Origin: an uncultured Lachnospiraceae bacterium
GTDB taxonomy: Bacteria > Bacillota > Clostridia > Lachnospirales > Lachnospiraceae
Direction: 5' to 3'
Assembly (NCBI GenBank): GCA_945864145.1
Contig: CAMBAN010000013.1
Span: 1-39,066 of the forward strand
Length of the DNA: 39,066 nucleotides
A program made the position numbers and the translations under genes. This document shows, piece after piece, positions 2,855 through 32,152 of this stretch (its first letter is position 1; every line of letters begins with the position of its first letter). The notes under the pieces were generated by a model. The model made no database searches, was not told the DNA's origin, and saw nothing but the letters and a program-made list of their open reading frames with translations.

Positions 2855-2906
2855 TTTCAAAAAATATATAACGATAAGGGAGTATATAACTCTCTGAAAA
2901 AGTAAG

Positions 2907-2996
2907 AAGGGGTTGTAAAATAACTCCTTAAAAAAGCAGCAGCTTACCGACATCTAATTGATGGCAGTAAGCTGCTCTTTATTTTTACAGCCCCTT
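2907..2996. repeat. Nested palindromic element (MITE-like) with terminator potential
   Basis: The outer arm AAGGGGTTGTAAAA (2907-2920) pairs with TTTTACAGCCCCTT (2983-2996) with only one G-T wobble. Inside it a second perfect stem, AGCAGCTTAC (2938-2947) with GTAAGCTGCT (2967-2976), encloses CATC/GATG. The inner stem followed by CTTTATTTTT would act as the terminator of the GPH gene. The double nesting and near-identical outer arms look more like a mobilised palindromic intergenic repeat than a plain terminator. Copy number elsewhere in the genome is unknown. Confidence 0.6.
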
Positions 2997-2998
2997 GT

Positions 2999-3040
2999 GA
3001 CGCTTTTGCGTCGCTGTTAGTGGGCAATCTTTTTTTGCCC
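2999..3040. repeat. Two short consecutive hairpins
   Basis: GACGC-TTTT-GCGTC (2999-3012) and GGGCAA-N7-TTGCCC (3022-3040) are perfect stems lying between the palindromic element and the repeat array. No coding frame covers them. They resemble in style the paired hairpins at 39027-39059. Confidence 0.5.
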
Positions 3041-3058
3041 TGGGGATTTCAGTGTAAG

Positions 3059-3305
3059 TTTTATAGGAAGAAAGAAGATAAATCGCCGTAAGCTGAAACT
3101 CAGTTTTCCTATAAGAAAGTTAAAAGAGCAAATCTTATAGGACAAAAAAGCAAGATTAGCTGTTGGTTATGATGTAAATCTCCTATAGAGTTATTGCTAT
3201 AAGTAAGTCTTATAGGATACACATGAATTCAAAGTAGAAAAAAATTCAAAATTTCTTACAAAAAGTCCTATAGGAATCTCTATTACAAATAACCTTATAG
3301 GAAAT
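3059..3305. repeat. Array of seven TCYTATAGGA motifs in inverted pairs
   Basis: Seven copies of a 10-bp near-palindromic motif occur in about 245 noncoding bases. Forward copies are at 3059-3069, 3133-3143, 3208-3217 and 3293-3303; reverse-oriented copies at 3105-3118, 3181-3190 and 3266-3276 (the last fully palindromic, TCCTATAGGA). Measured at the TATA core, forward copies are 74, 75 and 85 apart and reverse copies 74 and 85 apart. Each reverse copy precedes a forward copy by 26-27 bases, giving three hairpin-capable units, the first with a perfect 10-bp stem. Sequences between motifs are not alike. No cas genes or transposase are nearby. It could be a cluster of operator sites, a structured RNA, or an intergenic repeat family. 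Confidence 0.75.
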
Positions 3306-3451
3306 CCCAACAGTCTAAACGACGATGTAAATGAATTTTATTATTGCCATTTGTAGGCTTCCACCATTTACAACCTTTCCAGGTAGACAACTGATAGAAT
3401 AAAAGTGTATATTGATGTTGATATTGAAAAAATACTGGCAGATAAAAAACT

Positions 3452-7688: not shown

Positions 7689-8639
7689 TTATTTTTTTTC
7701 TTCCTTCTCTGTCCAACGGTTATAGATATTTGCCAAAATAGCGCCGGAAATATTATGCCATACGGAGAAGATAGCACCAGGTACAGTAGCCATAGCCAAA
7801 TCCGGGAAAGCAGTTCCCGCCAGTGAAGTAGCAAGTCCGGAGTTCTGCATACCAATTTCTACTGAAATAGCTTTTGTCTTTGGAACACTCATTCGTAACA
7901 GTTTTCCAAGACCAAAACCGCAGGCATATCCTAAAAGATTATGAAGAATAACGACTACAAAAACGATAGCACCAGTGGTCAAGATTTTCTCTGAATTATG
8001 AGATACAACAGCAGCAACAATCAGACAGATTGCAATAACGGAGACAGAAGGCAAAACCTTTACCAGTTTCTGTGTTACTTTACCAAAAAACTTGTTGATG
8101 ATAAATCCAAGTGCAATTGGAATGATTACCACCTTGATGATGGAAAGGAACATACTGAGTGCATTCACAGTTACAGTTGTTCTTAAAAGAAGATAAGTAA
8201 TGGCTGGAGTCAGAATCGGAGCCAACAGCGTGTTAACACTTGTCATACCAACCGAAAGAGCAACATCTCCTTTGGAAAGATAAGTGATGACATTGCTGGA
8301 TGTTCCACCAGGACAGGTACCAACCAGAACTACACCGGCTAAGAGAGCCGGGTCAAGGTGAAAGATTTTACCAAGTGCAAAAGCAAGCAGCGGCATTACG
8401 GTAAATTGTGCAACACATCCGAACAAAATGTCTTTTGGGCGTGTAAATACCAGCTTAAAATCTTCCAGCTTCAGGGTAAGTCCCATACCAAACATAACAA
8501 TCATTAGCAGATAATTGACCCAGGAAGTCTGAATCCATAGACAGGAGCTGGGTACAAATAGCGCCAATGCGGCGACAACAAGGACGATTACAGCCATGTA
8601 CTTTCCAAAAAAGTCACTGATTTTTTCTAATACTTTCAT
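7689..8639 (-). CDS. BASS (bile acid:sodium symporter) family transporter, T-box controlled
   Basis: A 316-residue membrane protein with about 10 hydrophobic segments. Family signatures are VGTCPGGTSSNVITYLSKGD in the first repeat and VEIGMQNSGLATSLAGTAFP in the second, both forming the Na+ and substrate sites. Bacterial members carry organic acids (bile acids, pantoate-type and keto acids) rather than bile acids alone. A T-box leader with an isoleucine-type specifier precedes it, so transcription should rise when tRNA-Ile is uncharged. That points to import of isoleucine, its keto acid or a precursor; substrate is inference. The ribosome binding site GAGGAGG lies immediately upstream. The gene is monocistronic and ends in a strong hairpin. 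Confidence 0.88.
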   Translation of the reverse strand: MKVLEKISDFFGKYMAVIVLVVAALALFVPSSCLWIQTSWVNYLLMIVMFGMGLTLKLEDFKLVFTRPKDILFGCVAQFTVMPLLAFALGKIFHLDPALLAGVVLVGTCPGGTSSNVITYLSKGDVALSVGMTSVNTLLAPILTPAITYLLLRTTVTVNALSMFLSIIKVVIIPIALGFIINKFFGKVTQKLVKVLPSVSVIAICLIVAAVVSHNSEKILTTGAIVFVVVILHNLLGYACGFGLGKLLRMSVPKTKAISVEIGMQNSGLATSLAGTAFPDLAMATVPGAIFSVWHNISGAILANIYNRWTEKEEKK

Positions 8640-8737: not shown

Positions 8738-9012
8738 AAAAAAACCTCTGTCTCTATAAAGAGACAAAGGTTATTCCTCTGCGGTACCACTCTTATTGCC
8801 GGCAAAAGCCGACCACTCAATCACATATCTGACAATATGGGATAAGGTAACGGTTATCACTCGTTCAGACTTACTAAAACATGTCGTTTAGTCTGAATGC
8901 TCTGAGGTGATTTTCACAGGAAATCCGGATTGTCTCGCATCAACCGACAACTCTCTGAACCTTTCCTTTCCCGATACTTTTCCTCTTCAACGCAGTGTCT
9001 TTATCAGTTGCA
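8738..9012 (-). ncRNA. T-box riboswitch leader, probable tRNA-Ile specificity
   Basis: Read on the minus strand, the leader has an AGAGAG motif and distal GGTTGATG loop in Stem I, an AGTA (5' side) facing GAA, one base, then ATC and A (3' side), so the specifier is ATC (8909-8911, isoleucine). A stem III (TTCAGACT with AGTCTGAA) and the T-box GAGTGGTACCGC (8782-8793) follow. The TGGT bulge matches a tRNA ending ACCA, as expected for tRNA-Ile. The intrinsic terminator is 8743-8772 with a T run beyond it. Uncharged tRNA should stabilise the antiterminator and allow expression of the transporter 98 bases downstream. Confidence 0.9.
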
Positions 9013-24262: not shown

Positions 24263-27200
24263 GTGGTAAGTAAAAAGAAATGGGCGAAACGGGGTAGCCG
24301 AGTATTTTCTGCGATACTTGCAAGTGCCTTAGTTTTGAATAGTGGAGCATTTGAGATGGTCCGAGCAGCAGAATTATCTGAACCTATTGCAAGTATTTCG
24401 AGTGTCGAAGAAGGAGTAGCAGAGGAAACAACAGACACAGAGGAATCTAAGGAGAAAAATCAGAAAACACAGGAAGATGAAGAAACAGAAGTAGCGGAAA
24501 CAGAGACAGAAACAGAGACGGAGACAGAAACAGAGACAGAGACGGAGACGGAGACAGAAACAGAGACGGAGACAGAAACAGAAGAAGAAACAACAGAAGA
24601 ACAGACCGTGATAGAAAAGGAAGCTGTTGCAAAGGCTGCTACCTTTGATCATAGTCAGGATACAGATACGAAAAAAACATATTCTCCTGAAGAACTTGAG
24701 GTTGGACAGAATTGGGGAGCGACTGTTTCAGAAAAGGATAACATTACAACATATCAGTTTGAAAAGCAGTATAGCCAGATTAGTTATAAGTTACCGGAGG
24801 CTGTGGATGCATCCAGAATTGAAAAGGTCATTTGCAACCTGACAGCTGGAGAAGCAAAATATTTCTCTATGAAATTCTTAAATGAGAAAGGATTGGATGG
24901 AGAAATTGGCGTAGCGTATGGCACTAATTCGATTGATATCAGTAAGCTGGATAGCTCTAAAGGAGAGGCAAAGGATATTCAGGCTATTGGACTCATGAAT
25001 CTTTACGAAGGAGAGTATCAGTTCGCCATTGAAAGCATTACCTTTATCCTTACAGAAAAAGAAGCAGAGGATGAAAAAGAAAAGACTTTTAAAGTCTCTG
25101 ATTTAGAACTCGCAGCAAATTGGAATGTAGAAATGGAAGAAGTTGAAGATGGGACTGCTTTCAAATTTACAAAGCAATATGGTGCTGCAAGCTTTATGGT
25201 TCCTGAAAGTGTAGAACCAAATAAGATTGAAAAAATCATTTTTAGCGCATCAGACAGTTCGAAATTATCTGTAAAGTTTTTCTCAGATAATGGTATGCAG
25301 AATGAGATGGCAGTAGCTTATGGCAGCAATCAGCTTTCCGCTGATGCCATAAAGGAGGGCTCTGCAGCAGATATTATGACGATTGGAGTTATGGGCTTGG
25401 AGGAAGGCTTCGAAACAACAATTGATACAGTTACTTTTATCTTAGGCGATGGAAAAGAGGTCGAAGTAGATAAGTCTATTGGAGATTTGACCAAGGACTG
25501 CTTTAAGTCAGCTGCCAATAATAATCCAATCGTAACACAGCGTTACAGTGCTGACCCAGGTGTTATGGTATATGATGACACTGTTTACATCTACTCAACA
25601 AATGATATCTATGAGTATGATGCAAAGGGTGCGATAAAAGAGAATGGATATGGTCTGATTAAGACAATCAACTGTTTCTCTTCTACAGACCTTGTAAACT
25701 GGACAGATCATGGAGCAATTGAAGTAGCTGGAAAAAATAATGACGCAGGTGCCGCAAAATGGGCAAATAATTCATGGGCTCCTTGTGCAGCACATAAGAC
25801 CATTAATGGCAAGGAGAAGTTTTTCTTATACTTTGCTGATAATGGAAGTGGAATCGGTGTGTTAACCTCTGACAGTCCTACAGGACCTTGGGTAGATCCA
25901 TTAGGAAAGCAGTTGATTTCCCGCAGCACACCAACCTGTAACACCGTAGAGTGGTTATTTGATCCGGCAGTATTGGTAGATGATGACGGTTCGGCATATC
26001 TCTATTTTGGTGGAGGTGTTCCAAGTGGAAAAGCAGCAGACCCGGGAACAGCAAGAGTAGTAAAGCTTGGTGAAGATATGATTAGTCTTGACGGAGACCC
26101 TGTTCAGATTAATCCACCATATTTATTTGAAGATTCCGGTATTAACAAGGTGGATGGAAAATACATCTACAGCTATTGTTCTAACTGGAATTGTGCAGAT
26201 GGTTTTGTAAACGGTACAATCGAATATATGGAAAGCGATAGTCCGATGGGACCATTTACCTATAAGGGTGAGTTATTCAGAAATCCATCTACCTTCTTTA
26301 ACGATGGAAATGGAAATAACCATCATAGTATGTTTGAGTTTAAGGGACAGTTATATCTGGCATATCATGCAAGAGCATTGGAATTAGGTGCAATTGGCTC
26401 AAATAAGGGATATCGCAGTACACAGATTGATAAGGTAACCTATAGCAATGGTAAATTGGAAAATGTTACCGGAACAATGACAGGCGTGTCACAAGTTGGC
26501 TATCTGAATCCATACAAACAGGTAAATGCTACAACAATTGCCCGCCAGAAGGGTATCGAAGTAATTGGTGATTTGAATCCAACCTTAACAGTGACAGATG
26601 GTGACTGGACAAGCTTAAAGGGTGTTGATTTCGTAGACGGTTTATCTAAAATGACAATGAATATCAAAGCCGATGAAGATATGACCGTAAAGGTACGTAC
26701 CGGAAGTGAAACAGGTACAGTCATCGGAGAATTCCAGGTTTCAGCATCAGATTCTTTCCAGAATGTGACAGCAAGCATGAAAAATATCACAGGTGTTAAA
26801 AATATCTTCTTCACCTTTGAGGGTAGTGCAGAAGTGAGAAGCTGGAAGGCGGAAGCAGGAAATACTTTCACTTTTGATAAGCTTGAGGTAGTTACATCCT
26901 ATGATTTAACCACAGATATTTCTGTAGATGGTGCAATTACCATTGCTTATGATAAGAAGTACTCGGAAATCCGTTTTGCTTTACCGGAAAGCATTGATGC
27001 AAAAAAGGTAAATAAGATTGTTTTGAACCTTAGTAAAGGTGAAGCAGGTAATTTATCGGTAAAGGCATTGCACAATACAGGTGAAACACAGGAAGAACTG
27101 GCGGTTGTATATGGAAACAGTTCACTGGATGTTTCAGCAATGGATGCAAAAGAAAGTTTTAACTGTTTTGGTATCATGTCTATGTCTGATGACCCATGTG

Positions 27201-30200
27201 AGGTGACAATTAAATCTGTAACCTTTGAAATGGAAGCAGAAAATGACACTTCTGATGATACCGGAATTGAAATGGATATCCCGGATTTACGTGATGCAAT
27301 CACAGCAGAAATGGGAGATGACTTTATTGTTGGTACCGCAATCTGCTTAAATGAGATATCTGATAAAAAATTAATGGCTCTTGTAACAAAGCATTTTAAT
27401 GCAGTTACTTTTGGTAATGAATTAAAGCCTGACTGCTTATTAAACAAGAGTACTATCCAGACGGTAACCTTAAATGGTGAGGAAATCGAGGTACCATCTC
27501 TTAACTTTAGAAGTCCTGAGAAGATGCTGGAAAAGATTTATAAATGGAATCAGGAGAATCCGGATGACTTTATCAAAGTACGTGGACATGTATTAACATG
27601 GCATTCACAGACTCCGGAATGGTTTTTCCATGAGGATTATGATGCAGATAAACCATTAGTAGATAAAGAAACAATGACAAAACGTCATGAATGGTATATC
27701 AAATCAGTATTAGAGCATTTTGTTGGAAAAGACAGTAAATATAAAGATATGTTCTATGGCTGGGATGTTGTCAATGAAGCAGCCAGCGATAGTACTGGAA
27801 CCTATCGAAGTGGAGATGAGAATTCAACCTGGTGGAAGGTATATAACAGTAATGAATTTATCATCAATGCCTTTAGATTTGCAAATAAATACGCACCGGC
27901 AAGCCTTGAGCTTTACTATAACGATTATAGTGAATGTGATGCGAAAAAGGTGCCTGCTATTGCAAAGCTTTTAACTGACGTAAAGAATGCAGAAGGAACC
28001 CGTATCGATGGAATGGGTATGCAGGGACATTATCATACTACAGATTATCCATCTATTGAGGATTTCAAAACAGCAGCAAGAACCTATGCAAAGATTGTAG
28101 GAAAATTGCAACTTACAGAACTAGATTATCAGTGTAGCGCAGATTACGACGGAACAGCAGCTACTTATGATGAAGAAAACATGAAATTAGGCTATCGATA
28201 TAAAGCCTTTTATGATGCGGTAAAAGAATTAGAGGAAGAAGGAATTGATTTTACCAACATTACTGTATGGGGTGTTGTAGATAAAAACTCATGGCTACAA
28301 AATGCAAGCTTTGTAGGTGGTGGTGCAAATGGAAGTAAAAAGCAGATGCCATTACTGTTTGATGATGATTATCAGGCAAAGGCAGCATATTGGGCTTTTG
28401 TAGACGACACCAAATTAAAGAGTCCTGCTAAGAGATTTGATATTATCCAGGCCAATGCAAGTGATAATATTTATGAAAGTGGAAATGAGCTTACTTTTGC
28501 AGGAGAAAAGGTTAAAGCAACAGCTATTCCTGTATGGTATGAGAATACCATTTACGTACAGGTAGAGGTAGAAGACGAAGTCGAAGATCCTTTCGACCAG
28601 GTAAAGGTATATCTTTGCCAGGATGGTACAATCCAGAGAAAGACTGTATCAAGGGCACAGGCAGTGTCAACGGAAAATGGTTATGTTGCAACAGTTAAGT
28701 TCACTTGCGAGGAGGGCTCTCTTGTAACTTCAGCTAAAGTGCAGATGGATTTTGTAGTAGAAGATGCTTCTGAAAGCATTGCATACAATGACCAGTCCTT
28801 CTCACAGGATAAGAGTGCTGACAGCTATGCAAAGGGTACTATCAAACCATGCTTCTGCATTGCACAGGGGACGATTGAGGTAGATGGCGAGCTTGATGAC
28901 GCATGGGAGAAGGTAGAACCTACAGAGCTTACTATTAATTTAGGAGCAAATGTTACAGCAAATGCAAAGCTCTTATGGGATAAAGATAATTTATATGCAT
29001 ATGTGAGTGTACAGGATGCAGTTTTAAATGCAGACAGTGCGCAGGTACATGAAAAGGATTCCTTTGAGTTATTTATTGATGAGAATAATCACAAGAGTTC
29101 ATCTTATGAAGAGGATGACAAACAGTATCGTATCAATTATTTGAATGAGCAGAGCTTCAACGGAAAGAAGTGTACTGCTGAAAACATTCAGTCAGCAACA
29201 AAGGTTGTTGAAGGCGGTTATGTAGTAGAGGTTGCTGTTGCATGGACAGATATTACTCCTGAAATCGGAAGTCAGATTGGTCTGGAATTACAGATTAATG
29301 ATGCCAATGCATCAGGAAAACGTGATGGTACACTGAACTGGTATGACAATTCCGGAAACGGCTGGCAGAATCCGAGCGTATTTGGTACCGCTACTTTAGT
29401 AAAAGAAATTGGAAAAGTTGAAATAAAAGCTGATATTCAGTGGAATGTACCTGATTTGAAAGACTCTGTGACAGAGAAATTAGGTGACAATTTCCTCGTA
29501 GGAGCAACCATTGGTGGAAAAACCTCTGAGGATGAAAATATCATGGCTCTTGTAACCAAGCATTTTAATGCGGTATCTATTGAAAACGAACTGAAACCGG
29601 ACGCACTCTTTGGATATGTAAGTGATAAGCCGGAAACAGAAACAGTGGAATTCAATGGTAAAGAATTATTGGTTCCTAAGATGGATTACAGCAGAGCTGA
29701 GAAGATACTTGATAAGATTTATGATTGGAACCAGGAGCATCCGGATGAGTATATCAAGGTACGTGGTCATGTACTGACATGGCATTCACAGACTCCTGAA
29801 TGGTTCTTCAAGGAAGGCTATGTGAAGGCAAATGATTTCGTGGATAAAGAGACAATGAACTTGCGCCATGAGTGGTTCATTAAAACAGTATTAGAGCATT
29901 TTTGCGGTGGAGACAGTAAGTATCAGGGAATGTTCTATGGCTGGGATGTAGTAAATGAAGCAGTCAGTGACAGCACGGGCACTTATAGAAATGAAAATGA
30001 AAATTCTATGTGGTGGAAATTATACCAAAGCAATGAATTCATTATCAATGCTTTCAGATTTGCTAACAAATATGCACCTGCAGATTTGGAATTATACTAC
30101 AATGATTACAGCGAATGCAGTGAAAACAAATCTAAGGGCATTGCACAGCTGTTGACAGATGTAAAGAATGCAGAAGGTACTCGTATCGATGCTATGGGTA

Positions 30201-32152
30201 TGCAGTCTCATCATTCAACCAATGCAGGTTCACCATCAGCTGAACAGTTCAAGAATGCAGTAAGAAAGTATGCAGATATCGTTGGTAAGGTACAGTTGAC
30301 AGAGTTAGACTTTACAACTTCTAACGGCTATGATGGTTCTGTAGCAATGTATGATGCAGAAAATACAAAACTTGCTTACAGATATAAGGAGATTTATCAG
30401 GCAATTGGGGAATTACGTCAGGAAGGCGTTAATGTTTCCGGTATGACAATCTGGGGAACCATTGATAAGTATTCCTGGTTAAATGATAATCGAGATGTTC
30501 CACAGATTCCGATGTTATTTGATGATGACTATATGGTTAAGCCTGCATACTGGGCATTTGTAGACCCATCTGTTTTAGAGCCTCAGATAAAGGAATTTGA
30601 TGTTCTGCAAAGTACGGATGGCAGCTTTACCAATGGTTCTGTGATTGCTTTTGCAGGAGAAAAGACATCTGCAACAGTGATTCCAGTATGGAATGAAGAG
30701 GGACTTCACTTTAAGGTAAATGTGGAAGATGAAACAGTGAATGAAAATGACAAATTTGTCATTTATATATCTGTAAACAATGTACTGAACAAGGTTGAAG
30801 TGCCAAGAGAAAAAGCAAGCAAGACTGTAACAGGCTATGAAGCAACTGTTGATGCAAGTTTAGGTGCACTTACCGTAAACAGCGAGGTTGGTATTGATTT
30901 TGTAGTTGTAAACGGTGATGAAAAGGTTGCTTACAATGATTACAGATTTACACAGGAAATCAGCGATAAGTATTATGCAAGTGCCTTAATTAAGCCATTT
31001 ATGGGAATTAAGCATGGTACTGCTGTGATTGACGGTGAGTTAGATGACAGCTTTGCGAAGGTTGATGCAGTTCCTCTTAAAATTGCATTAGGTGCAAAAG
31101 CGGAAGCTTCTGTAAAACTTCTTTGGGATGAAGAAAAGCTATATGCTTATGTGGAGGTAAAGGATGCTGTATTAAATGCAGATAGCAGTCAGGTGCATGA
31201 AAAGGACTCTGTAGAAATCTTTATCGACGAGAACAATCATAAAACAACAAGCTATGAAGAGGACGATAAGCAGTATCGTGTAAATTACCTCAATGAGCAG
31301 TCATTTAATGGTAAGAAATGTAAAGCAGACTATATTGATTCCGCTGTGAAGCTTACAGAGGATGGCTATGTACTTGAAGCAGCAATTGCATGGACAGACA
31401 TTACACCTGTAATTGGTAATAAGGTAGGTCTGGAATTACAAATCAATGATGCAGATGCATCCGGTAAACGTATTGGTACATTAAGCTGGTTTGATACAAC
31501 CGGAAACGGCTGGCAGAATCCAAGTGTATTTGGTACAGTTACGTTATTAGGTACAGAAACAACAGGAGAGGATAAACCAGCAACAAATCCTGGAAACAAC
31601 TCTTCCTCTTCAAATGATGAGCAGTCTTCTGATACAGCGACAGTTACCGTGACTGTAAAAACATCAAATAACATTTCCGTTATTGATAATCAGGAGGTTC
31701 CATTAGCAATGGTTCCGGGTGTTGCTCTTCCGATGTTTGATTTGAAACTGGATTATAAGAAGCAGTTACAGAATGAATTATTGATGAAATATCATGGAAA
31801 GAATGCTTTGCTATTCTCAAATCTTGGAGGAGGCATAGGCTTTACCATTCATTCAGAGCAGAATTTTGATTCCAATATTAATATGCAAATAAATAGAAAA
31901 GAACTTCCAAATTTTGCGGAAGGATTTGATACAGTAGCTGTATCACCTGTTCAGGAAGCAAAGCTTTCCTTCGAACTTGGATTACATATTAATCTTGGTG
32001 CACAGTATGCAGGAAAGACCGCATATATCTTTAAAAAGAACCTGTTAACAGGAGAATATGTGAGAGAATCCATTGTAACTGTAAATGAAATTGGTAACGT
32101 TATGTTACAGACAAATGAATTAACAGATGTAATTGTATTGATTGCAAAATAA
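24263..32152 (+). CDS. Giant secreted multidomain xylan-degrading enzyme (GH43, two GH10, several CBMs)
   Basis: A 2,629-residue protein with a GTG start and a signal peptide (about 1-36). After an E-T-rich linker (about 76-113) come two related binding-module-like repeats (about 140-262, 275-394), perhaps like the CBM86 of Roseburia xylanases. A GH43 arabinoxylan arabinofuranosidase-like domain follows (about 406-752; likely D431, D567, E623), then a CBM6-like module (760-878) and a third copy of the first repeat type (878-990). GH10 no. 1 is about 1003-1386 (acid/base E1172 in WDVVNEA, nucleophile E1286 in TELDY), with two CBM9-like modules to 1714. GH10 no. 2 is about 1726-2104 (E1899, E2014), again with two CBM9-like modules to 2430. 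A serine-rich linker leads to an unrecognised C-terminal domain (2460-2629). No LPxTG or membrane anchor is seen. It should cleave xylan backbones and arabinose branches outside the cell. Confidence 0.93.
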   Translation: MVSKKKWAKRGSRVFSAILASALVLNSGAFEMVRAAELSEPIASISSVEEGVAEETTDTEESKEKNQKTQEDEETEVAETETETETETETETETETETETETETETEEETTEEQTVIEKEAVAKAATFDHSQDTDTKKTYSPEELEVGQNWGATVSEKDNITTYQFEKQYSQISYKLPEAVDASRIEKVICNLTAGEAKYFSMKFLNEKGLDGEIGVAYGTNSIDISKLDSSKGEAKDIQAIGLMNLYEGEYQFAIESITFILTEKEAEDEKEKTFKVSDLELAANWNVEMEEVEDGTAFKFTKQYGAASFMVPESVEPNKIEKIIFSASDSSKLSVKFFSDNGMQNEMAVAYGSNQLSADAIKEGSAADIMTIGVMGLEEGFETTIDTVTFILGDGKEVEVDKSIGDLTKDCFKSAANNNPIVTQRYSADPGVMVYDDTVYIYSTNDIYEYDAKGAIKENGYGLIKTINCFSSTDLVNWTDHGAIEVAGKNNDAGAAKWANNSWAPCAAHKTINGKEKFFLYFADNGSGIGVLTSDSPTGPWVDPLGKQLISRSTPTCNTVEWLFDPAVLVDDDGSAYLYFGGGVPSGKAADPGTARVVKLGEDMISLDGDPVQINPPYLFEDSGINKVDGKYIYSYCSNWNCADGFVNGTIEYMESDSPMGPFTYKGELFRNPSTFFNDGNGNNHHSMFEFKGQLYLAYHARALELGAIGSNKGYRSTQIDKVTYSNGKLENVTGTMTGVSQVGYLNPYKQVNATTIARQKGIEVIGDLNPTLTVTDGDWTSLKGVDFVDGLSKMTMNIKADEDMTVKVRTGSETGTVIGEFQVSASDSFQNVTASMKNITGVKNIFFTFEGSAEVRSWKAEAGNTFTFDKLEVVTSYDLTTDISVDGAITIAYDKKYSEIRFALPESIDAKKVNKIVLNLSKGEAGNLSVKALHNTGETQEELAVVYGNSSLDVSAMDAKESFNCFGIMSMSDDPCEVTIKSVTFEMEAENDTSDDTGIEMDIPDLRDAITAEMGDDFIVGTAICLNEISDKKLMALVTKHFNAVTFGNELKPDCLLNKSTIQTVTLNGEEIEVPSLNFRSPEKMLEKIYKWNQENPDDFIKVRGHVLTWHSQTPEWFFHEDYDADKPLVDKETMTKRHEWYIKSVLEHFVGKDSKYKDMFYGWDVVNEAASDSTGTYRSGDENSTWWKVYNSNEFIINAFRFANKYAPASLELYYNDYSECDAKKVPAIAKLLTDVKNAEGTRIDGMGMQGHYHTTDYPSIEDFKTAARTYAKIVGKLQLTELDYQCSADYDGTAATYDEENMKLGYRYKAFYDAVKELEEEGIDFTNITVWGVVDKNSWLQNASFVGGGANGSKKQMPLLFDDDYQAKAAYWAFVDDTKLKSPAKRFDIIQANASDNIYESGNELTFAGEKVKATAIPVWYENTIYVQVEVEDEVEDPFDQVKVYLCQDGTIQRKTVSRAQAVSTENGYVATVKFTCEEGSLVTSAKVQMDFVVEDASESIAYNDQSFSQDKSADSYAKGTIKPCFCIAQGTIEVDGELDDAWEKVEPTELTINLGANVTANAKLLWDKDNLYAYVSVQDAVLNADSAQVHEKDSFELFIDENNHKSSSYEEDDKQYRINYLNEQSFNGKKCTAENIQSATKVVEGGYVVEVAVAWTDITPEIGSQIGLELQINDANASGKRDGTLNWYDNSGNGWQNPSVFGTATLVKEIGKVEIKADIQWNVPDLKDSVTEKLGDNFLVGATIGGKTSEDENIMALVTKHFNAVSIENELKPDALFGYVSDKPETETVEFNGKELLVPKMDYSRAEKILDKIYDWNQEHPDEYIKVRGHVLTWHSQTPEWFFKEGYVKANDFVDKETMNLRHEWFIKTVLEHFCGGDSKYQGMFYGWDVVNEAVSDSTGTYRNENENSMWWKLYQSNEFIINAFRFANKYAPADLELYYNDYSECSENKSKGIAQLLTDVKNAEGTRIDAMGMQSHHSTNAGSPSAEQFKNAVRKYADIVGKVQLTELDFTTSNGYDGSVAMYDAENTKLAYRYKEIYQAIGELRQEGVNVSGMTIWGTIDKYSWLNDNRDVPQIPMLFDDDYMVKPAYWAFVDPSVLEPQIKEFDVLQSTDGSFTNGSVIAFAGEKTSATVIPVWNEEGLHFKVNVEDETVNENDKFVIYISVNNVLNKVEVPREKASKTVTGYEATVDASLGALTVNSEVGIDFVVVNGDEKVAYNDYRFTQEISDKYYASALIKPFMGIKHGTAVIDGELDDSFAKVDAVPLKIALGAKAEASVKLLWDEEKLYAYVEVKDAVLNADSSQVHEKDSVEIFIDENNHKTTSYEEDDKQYRVNYLNEQSFNGKKCKADYIDSAVKLTEDGYVLEAAIAWTDITPVIGNKVGLELQINDADASGKRIGTLSWFDTTGNGWQNPSVFGTVTLLGTETTGEDKPATNPGNNSSSSNDEQSSDTATVTVTVKTSNNISVIDNQEVPLAMVPGVALPMFDLKLDYKKQLQNELLMKYHGKNALLFSNLGGGIGFTIHSEQNFDSNINMQINRKELPNFAEGFDTVAVSPVQEAKLSFELGLHINLGAQYAGKTAYIFKKNLLTGEYVRESIVTVNEIGNVMLQTNELTDVIVLIAK
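24489..24600 (+). repeat. Glu-Thr coding hexanucleotide repeat tract
   Basis: A run of GAGACA/GAAACA/GAGACG-type hexamers encodes about 18 consecutive E-T dipeptides after the signal peptide. It is a flexible acidic linker at protein level and a slippage-prone tract at DNA level; six-base units change length without losing frame. Confidence 0.9.
27270..31550 (+). repeat. Tandem internal duplication of the GH10-CBM9-CBM9 block
   Basis: The blocks at about 27270-29405 and 29440-31550 encode the same domain order and share long near-identical stretches, such as KVRGHVLTWHSQTPEWFF, SNEFIINAFRFANKYAP and QVHEKDS.E.FIDENNHK. The offset is about 2,160 bases. Third-position differences are frequent, so the duplication is not very recent. 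Confidence 0.9.

Follow-up and report, generated by a model that had tools for sequence, protein, structure and literature searches.

The DNA analysed here (hereafter the window) is a stretch of 39,066 nucleotides from an uncultured Lachnospiraceae bacterium whose genome assembly comprises 2.98 Mb and is 83% complete. Near its left edge lies a noncoding segment with a regular array of short inverted motifs. Open reading frames overlapping positions 3000-3400 are only 27-73 aa long, no frame of 80 aa occurs between 2855 and 3522, and the segment contains no transposase gene. Elsewhere in the window, a T-box leader (8757-8999, minus strand, 135.8 bits) is positioned just upstream of an SBF-family transporter gene (7689-8639, minus strand), suggesting tRNA-controlled expression of this transporter. 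In addition, 24263-32152 on the plus strand is one open frame that starts with GTG and would encode 2629 aa.

The array belongs to an element with four copies in the genome, hereafter named A (the window copy), B (contig 8), C (contig 12) and D (contig 2). Copy A is made of the following parts:

2876..2905, minus strand: inverted copy of the right terminal sequence of the element, just beyond the left end; a weak match (query 203-235, 85% identity, E 0.007)
2909..2994, plus strand: left end block, with the inverted repeat GGGGTTGTAAAATAACTCC, a terminator-like hairpin and TTTTTACAGCCCC
2995..3041, plus strand: leader, from the end block to the array, common to the four copies with differences (alignment)
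3042..3050, plus strand: 5' arm of the array-closing stem, GGGGATTTC, same sequence in all four copies
3059..3068, plus strand: first motif, with no left partner; the sole motif of the array-less copy D
3107..3142, plus strand: hairpin unit H2, arms TCCTATA/TATAGGA, 22-nt loop
3181..3217, plus strand: hairpin unit H3, 23-nt loop
3266..3302, plus strand: hairpin unit H4, 23-nt loop; a weak match to the profile of units 1-3
3301..3308, plus strand: 3' arm of the array-closing stem, GAAATCCC, same sequence in all four copies
3309..3327, plus strand: start of the tail; 3295-3327 matches copy D at 100%

Site-by-site reading of the window confirmed the seven motif sites that had been noted, at 3059 (+), 3107 (-), 3133 (+), 3181 (-), 3208 (+), 3266 (both strands) and 3293 (+). 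TCYTATAGGA is exact at four of them, with one mismatch at 3059 and 3293 and two at 3181. The alternating orientation and regular spacing claimed for the sites were also found: distances between centres are 48, 26, 48, 27, 58 and 27 bases, giving periods of 74, 75 and 85. When one mismatch is allowed, the motif is found 20 times in the window, 10 of them inside the array, against 4.4 expected; none of 100 shuffles reached 20. The core 7-mer occurs eight times in 272 bases (shuffle mean 0.08, maximum 1 in 500 shuffles). Given this excess of matches and the core 7-mer count, chance is excluded and the array is real.

Finding the motif at similar density at random across the genome was to count against the array. 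The exact motif is indeed not enriched genome-wide (19 matches versus 63 for a backward control), yet three arrays account for 15 of these; the other four are solitary, without another core 7-mer inside 400 bases. Close inverted pairs with a loop of 12-36 bases number 12 in the genome, 11 of them in arrays, versus one in the backward control. The twelfth stands alone at contig 2:22609 with a 13-base loop, and a genome scan for TCCTATA-N22/23-TATAGGA found this pair in the three arrays only. A CRISPR array was rejected as an identity for the locus: orientation alternates, and the repeats measure 7-15 bp and are not identical direct repeats. Alternating orientation likewise rules out a direct-repeat antitoxin RNA. 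Helical phasing of the spacings was set aside because independent values are too few.

The two further arrays, at contig 8:41450-41720 (271 bases) and contig 12:14041-14310 (270 bases), each match that of the window at 93% identity. Copies differ in unit number, with three inverted pairs in A, four in B, four in C and none in D, in which the leader joins the tail directly and the first motif is fused to the last, leaving one motif. In copy C, one extra motif half is mutated and additional sequence precedes the leader. Copy A lacks a stretch of 51 bases that B and C have, the break falling inside the shared TTATAGGAAG, and its stretch 2907-3069, which contains the left end block, is 95% identical to copy D. 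The junctions at which A and D differ from B and C in unit number coincide with direct TATAGGA repeats. The simplest account of these sequences is that units were lost or gained between direct repeats; the change may have gone in either direction. Besides the four copies, fragments of the element are present at contigs 38 and 121. The element thus occurs at several unrelated intergenic places, as MITEs do, though in low copy number.

Copies B, C and D are 558, 638 and 226 bp long, and in each the array region is flanked by a left end starting GGGCTGTAAAA and a right end GAGAGTTATTTTACACTCCC. The left end carries a terminator-like hairpin on its inner side. The tail of B, C and D continues to a hairpin and the right inverted repeat, a part that is lost or replaced in the window copy. 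This tail hairpin was recognised by eye just inside the right end, with a folding energy of -12.8 kcal/mol in B, -11.5 in C and -9.5 in D, and was not listed by the consensus scan. The closing stem and the tail hairpin were considered as the two states of a switch, an idea that was rejected because the two can form together in B and C with the tail hairpin shortened (1.5 and 0.7 kcal/mol). The genome was searched for the left end with up to three mismatches. Eight matches were obtained, against none for the backward control, and seven of them lie at copy ends, at the contig 121 fragment or at an insertion-sequence end on contig 196; the left ends of B and C gave no match within three mismatches. 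The elements are mosaics, as the left blocks differ between A/D and B/C and the normal right end has been lost from copy A. The left limit of the element is uncertain, and inspection of A-D by eye revealed no target-site duplication.

The ends of the element resemble those of an IS1182-like insertion sequence. In a family sample, the left end matched over 26-35 bases in six genomes besides the source genome. Two of these six contain a complete insertion sequence of 1819 bp with a similar repeat and hairpin at each end. Its protein matches Pfam DDE_Tnp_1_6, and the best NCBIfam match is the IS1182 transposase NF033551 (E 6.6e-76, 256 bits versus a cut-off of 270). Compared to the ends of this insertion sequence, A and D have a closely matching left end, B and C have left ends that diverge past GGGGCTGTAAAA, and there are three mismatches in the right end. 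In both copies of the insertion sequence that were read, a terminator-like hairpin lies just inward of the terminal repeat GGGGCTGTAAAAWAASTCC at both ends, the arrangement also seen in the element here; unlike in this IS1182 family (NF033551), the element has the array in place of the transposase gene. Sharing terminal inverted repeats with an insertion sequence and, in the window copy, having no internal transposase gene are both MITE features. With these hairpins just inside both terminal repeats of the IS1182-like elements (L187 and L188), the insertion sequence may insulate itself from neighbouring transcription.

No assembled transposase gene with matching ends was found in the source genome. 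Contig 196 terminates inside a closely similar insertion-sequence end; therefore a matching insertion sequence is probably present in this genome but unassembled. Two IS1182-like genes are assembled, C36, with an internal stop, and C99. Around C99, the stretch examined, which excluded the right end, showed no matching repeat.

The evidence for insertion comes from copy C, which has a dUTPase gene on one side and a convergent gerA gene on the other. Of the 38 genus genomes, 35 have the dUTPase, and 30 loci were compared, 29 of them from sisters, with five further sisters left out. Among the 29 sister loci, gerA is convergent in 14, on the same strand in four, and not found at threshold in 11. 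The gap between the convergent genes is 25-165 bp in 11 of the 14 sister loci and 540-750 bp in the remaining three. None of the 14 gaps contains TATAGGA or TCCTATA, and the three long gaps contain no element ends. In the source genome, the gap measures 633 bp up to the gerA stop and holds nine motif matches. Moreover, the source-genome GerA ends with NGSVK and has its stop codon within the right terminal repeat of the element, when 15 of the 19 sister GerA matches end at residue 454 of 475 and the other four earlier. Because the sister gene pairs are without the motif and the gerA stop is supplied by the element, insertion of copy C is directly evidenced, and this copy, the one compared, shows the empty site in relatives that characterises a MITE. 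All four copies begin behind a stop codon, at a distance of 3 bases in B, 10 in C, 2 in D and 54 in the window copy.

The sequence flanking the motifs had been described as unrelated between units and hence as no product of recent tandem duplication. The first half of this statement is too strong. Units 1-3 of copy B were aligned, unit 4 lying outside the alignment. The arms are identical at 14 of 14 positions in all three comparisons, the loops at 11-12 of 22-23 and the linkers at 15-17 of 35-38, so that interiors about 50% identical separate 7-bp arms that are identical. None of 400 shuffles made the loops as alike, and 38 of 400 did so once three bases were removed from each loop end. Corresponding counts were 17 of 500 for unit 1 versus unit 2, 103 of 500 for unit 2 versus unit 3, and 80 of 1000 for linker 1 versus linker 2. 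The likeness of loops and units relative to shuffles makes an old tandem duplication of a unit of about 75 bp plausible, not proven. An inverted relation between H3 and H4 gave p 0.053 in the inverted loop test.

The identity of the arms is partly built in, because the units were picked by their arms. Comparison between copies gave 0 changes at 52 core positions versus 14 at 216 positions outside for A and B (p 0.045), 1 of 52 versus 14 of 215 for A and C (p 0.17), and 1 of 52 versus 15 of 216 for the three copies together (p 0.15). For changes across the whole 10-mer, p was 0.08 (A versus B), 0.20 (A versus C) and 0.16 (all three). Arm preservation between copies is suggestive at most.

These figures bear on the proposal of a multi-site operator, that is, a cluster of paired 7-8 bp boxes in opposite orientation, 29-30 bp from start to start, bound by a DNA-binding protein as in REP/BIME clusters. 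Strict arms among diverged loops and linkers, the fixed pair spacing and the core comparison of A with B point in this direction. On the other hand, the arm-based choice of units accounts for part of the identity, the other core and whole 10-mer comparisons are not significant (p 0.08 to 0.20), and the array is positioned behind genes. Nor is the 10-mer a clean palindromic operator, given that its inner half varies. What stands of the operator proposal is that the arms are alike in all units, with the reservation that arms define the units; sites lying behind stop codons within a mobile element speak against it, and we regard this reading as very improbable.

The array could also be a decaying repeat, functionless and without recent activity. 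Low copy number, the missing right end of the window copy, strongly diverged unit interiors and an arm preservation between copies that is marginal at best would all fit with decay. Yet copies with differing unit numbers exist at 93% identity, and the arms are alike in all units despite different interiors, which makes plain decay an improbable explanation.

A third possibility is a structured non-coding RNA of the plus strand, in which a multi-branched hairpin chain would be held by the closing stem, with the mobile ends as mere carriers. The plus strand folds far below shuffles (z -5.27 for A and -5.13 for B, versus -2.73 and -4.09 for the minus strand), the closing stem is present in all four copies, and the eighth pair of the unit changes from A-U to G-U with pairing kept. 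A longer part of element B gave z -3.24 on the plus strand; folding as single-stranded DNA gave z -3.69. However, because all arms are mutually complementary, a low folding energy would arise irrespective of function. Differences between copies do not favour the plus-strand fold. Placed on the consensus fold, four keep pairing, three break it and nine are unpaired on the plus strand, versus seven, two and seven on the minus strand; with the fold of copy A alone, one is kept and six are broken on the plus strand, versus five and five on the minus strand. No arm pair is changed on both sides. In addition, Rfam 15 yielded no array match at the gathering score, nor up to E 1 around copy B, and promoter-like sites show no excess over shuffles. 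The multi-hairpin RNA of the original suggestion is therefore possible in view of its folding energy but lacks covariation support between copies, and we consider it unlikely.

Among the three suggestions made for the array, an undescribed repeat family fits best, with the qualification that the array sits as a cassette inside an intergenic element that has several copies and is bounded by inverted repeats. We conclude that it is probably a hairpin cassette, variable in unit number, in the interior of a small non-autonomous mobile element (MITE) of IS1182 type. The ends of the element are inverted repeats of about 19 bp, each with a terminator-like hairpin inward of it, on the plan of the full IS1182-like insertion sequence. 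Its middle has an 8-bp stem GGGATTTC/GAAATCCC around either a short loop, as in D, or a chain of hairpins with units of 36-37 nt and linkers of 38-48 nt. The element would be moved in trans by an IS1182 transposase, and units may be lost or gained by slippage or recombination between TATAGGA repeats, possibly aided by the hairpins. The cassette would be a tolerated cargo behind stop codons, where transcriptional read-through would give a hairpin-rich 3' RNA tail.

The strictness of the arms suggests that their sequence is read by a factor or by a recombination process. More speculatively, TCCTATA/TATAGGA could be a recognition code for a DNA-binding protein or an RNA-binding partner, so that the element would spread such pairs of sites, in tunable number, to gene 3' ends and unit number would set the effect on neighbouring transcription; this remains a long shot. 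Copies with 0, 3 and 4 units coexist in one genome, which allows a direct test of how unit number affects neighbouring genes, and unit number could help to type strains.

Relatives were sought at several distances. BLAST of the whole element of copy B across 38 genus genomes, 37 of them congeners, matched the source genome only. With a profile of the unit (up to 125 candidates per congener), eight of the 37 congeners had one match each, with E values of 0.11 to 0.96 and no cluster, and the inverted pair pattern occurred one to three times in 15 of the 37, never with two pairs close together. A family sample of 397 genomes, among them the source genome and one congener, with at most two candidates scored in each, gave weak matches of 29-37 bases (E 3e-4 to 8e-4) in six other genomes. 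Genome contigs contained no exact match to the leader-motif pattern. A looser tandem pattern, matched exactly, was found in at least 80 stretches of genome contigs and 11 viral ones. The 91 tandem-pattern stretches and 15 pair loci were ranked by motif density. Twenty-two of the best 40 were inspected; these were short tandem repeats, one CRISPR array and apparently coding DNA, and none had the build of the array. Viral scans contained neither leader nor tail, and phages and plasmids gave no match. Since no relative was found, the array is known, within the reach of these searches, from the source genome alone. Among the titles and abstract openings listed by literature text searches, those of papers containing TCCTATAGGA included, none describes the motif as a bacterial repeat.

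Other arrays of these heptamers came to light during the searches. In the Prevotellaceae MAG AH.B5_2, six contigs (L079, L098, L107, L134, L135 and L143) carry TCCTATA/TATAGGA in short tandem arrays that repeat about every 24 bp and form a different repeat family; the unit of L143, the sole one of the six inspected, contains the palindrome TCCTATATAGGA. Porphyromonas catoniae (L100, L111 and L115) and Porphyromonas pasteri (L124) have mixed-orientation TCCTATA/TATAGGA arrays in steps of about 22 bp or multiples thereof, possibly kin to the known Porphyromonas repeat MITEs. In a Caldiserica MAG, L108:2020-2440 is a CRISPR-like array whose repeat contains TCCTATAAGGA, which explains the pattern match there.

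BOX and BrickBuilt resemble the element in plan, and BIMEs recall its motif arrangement. BOX of Streptococcus pneumoniae (PMC3049150) is a composite of end modules around inner modules whose number varies, which makes its length strain-dependent; boxB forms a tandem array, and in the predicted RNA fold the inner module interacts little with the ends. The composite plan of fixed ends and a variable middle is found here as well, with 0, 3, 4 and 4 units. In contrast, boxB is one module in tandem, whereas the units here keep 7-bp arms around interiors that are about half identical, and the element has four copies and IS1182-like ends.

BrickBuilt is a MITE of Porphyromonas gingivalis with a spacer-free, direct inner repeat of 23 nt (PMC4596501). 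Like the present element, it is intergenic and of limited host range, has a leader, a tail and a variable number of inner repeats, bears terminal repeats resembling those of a resident insertion sequence, and has no transposase remnant. Unlike it, the array here is made of alternating motifs with centres 26-58 bases apart and not of a 23-nt spacer-free direct repeat.

REPs are abundant, exceeding 100 copies, and go together with RAYT transposases of the IS200/IS605 kind (PMC2817692). REP/BIME clusters share with the array their short, regularly spaced motifs in alternating orientation, an extragenic location and a proposed nature as non-autonomous mobile elements. However, palindromic units are not numerous here: the inverted pair amounts to three arrays and one lone pair, and the motif is confined to three arrays within an element that has IS1182-like ends.

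Overall, the element adds a Lachnospiraceae case to the mobile elements already known to bring along a variable hairpin array of their own, here with a different build, strict short arms being separated by drifting interiors. By the tests made, it falls outside both BrickBuilt and BIME and is best filed among MITEs (reviewed in PMC10969869), as one of IS1182 type with a new kind of internal cassette.
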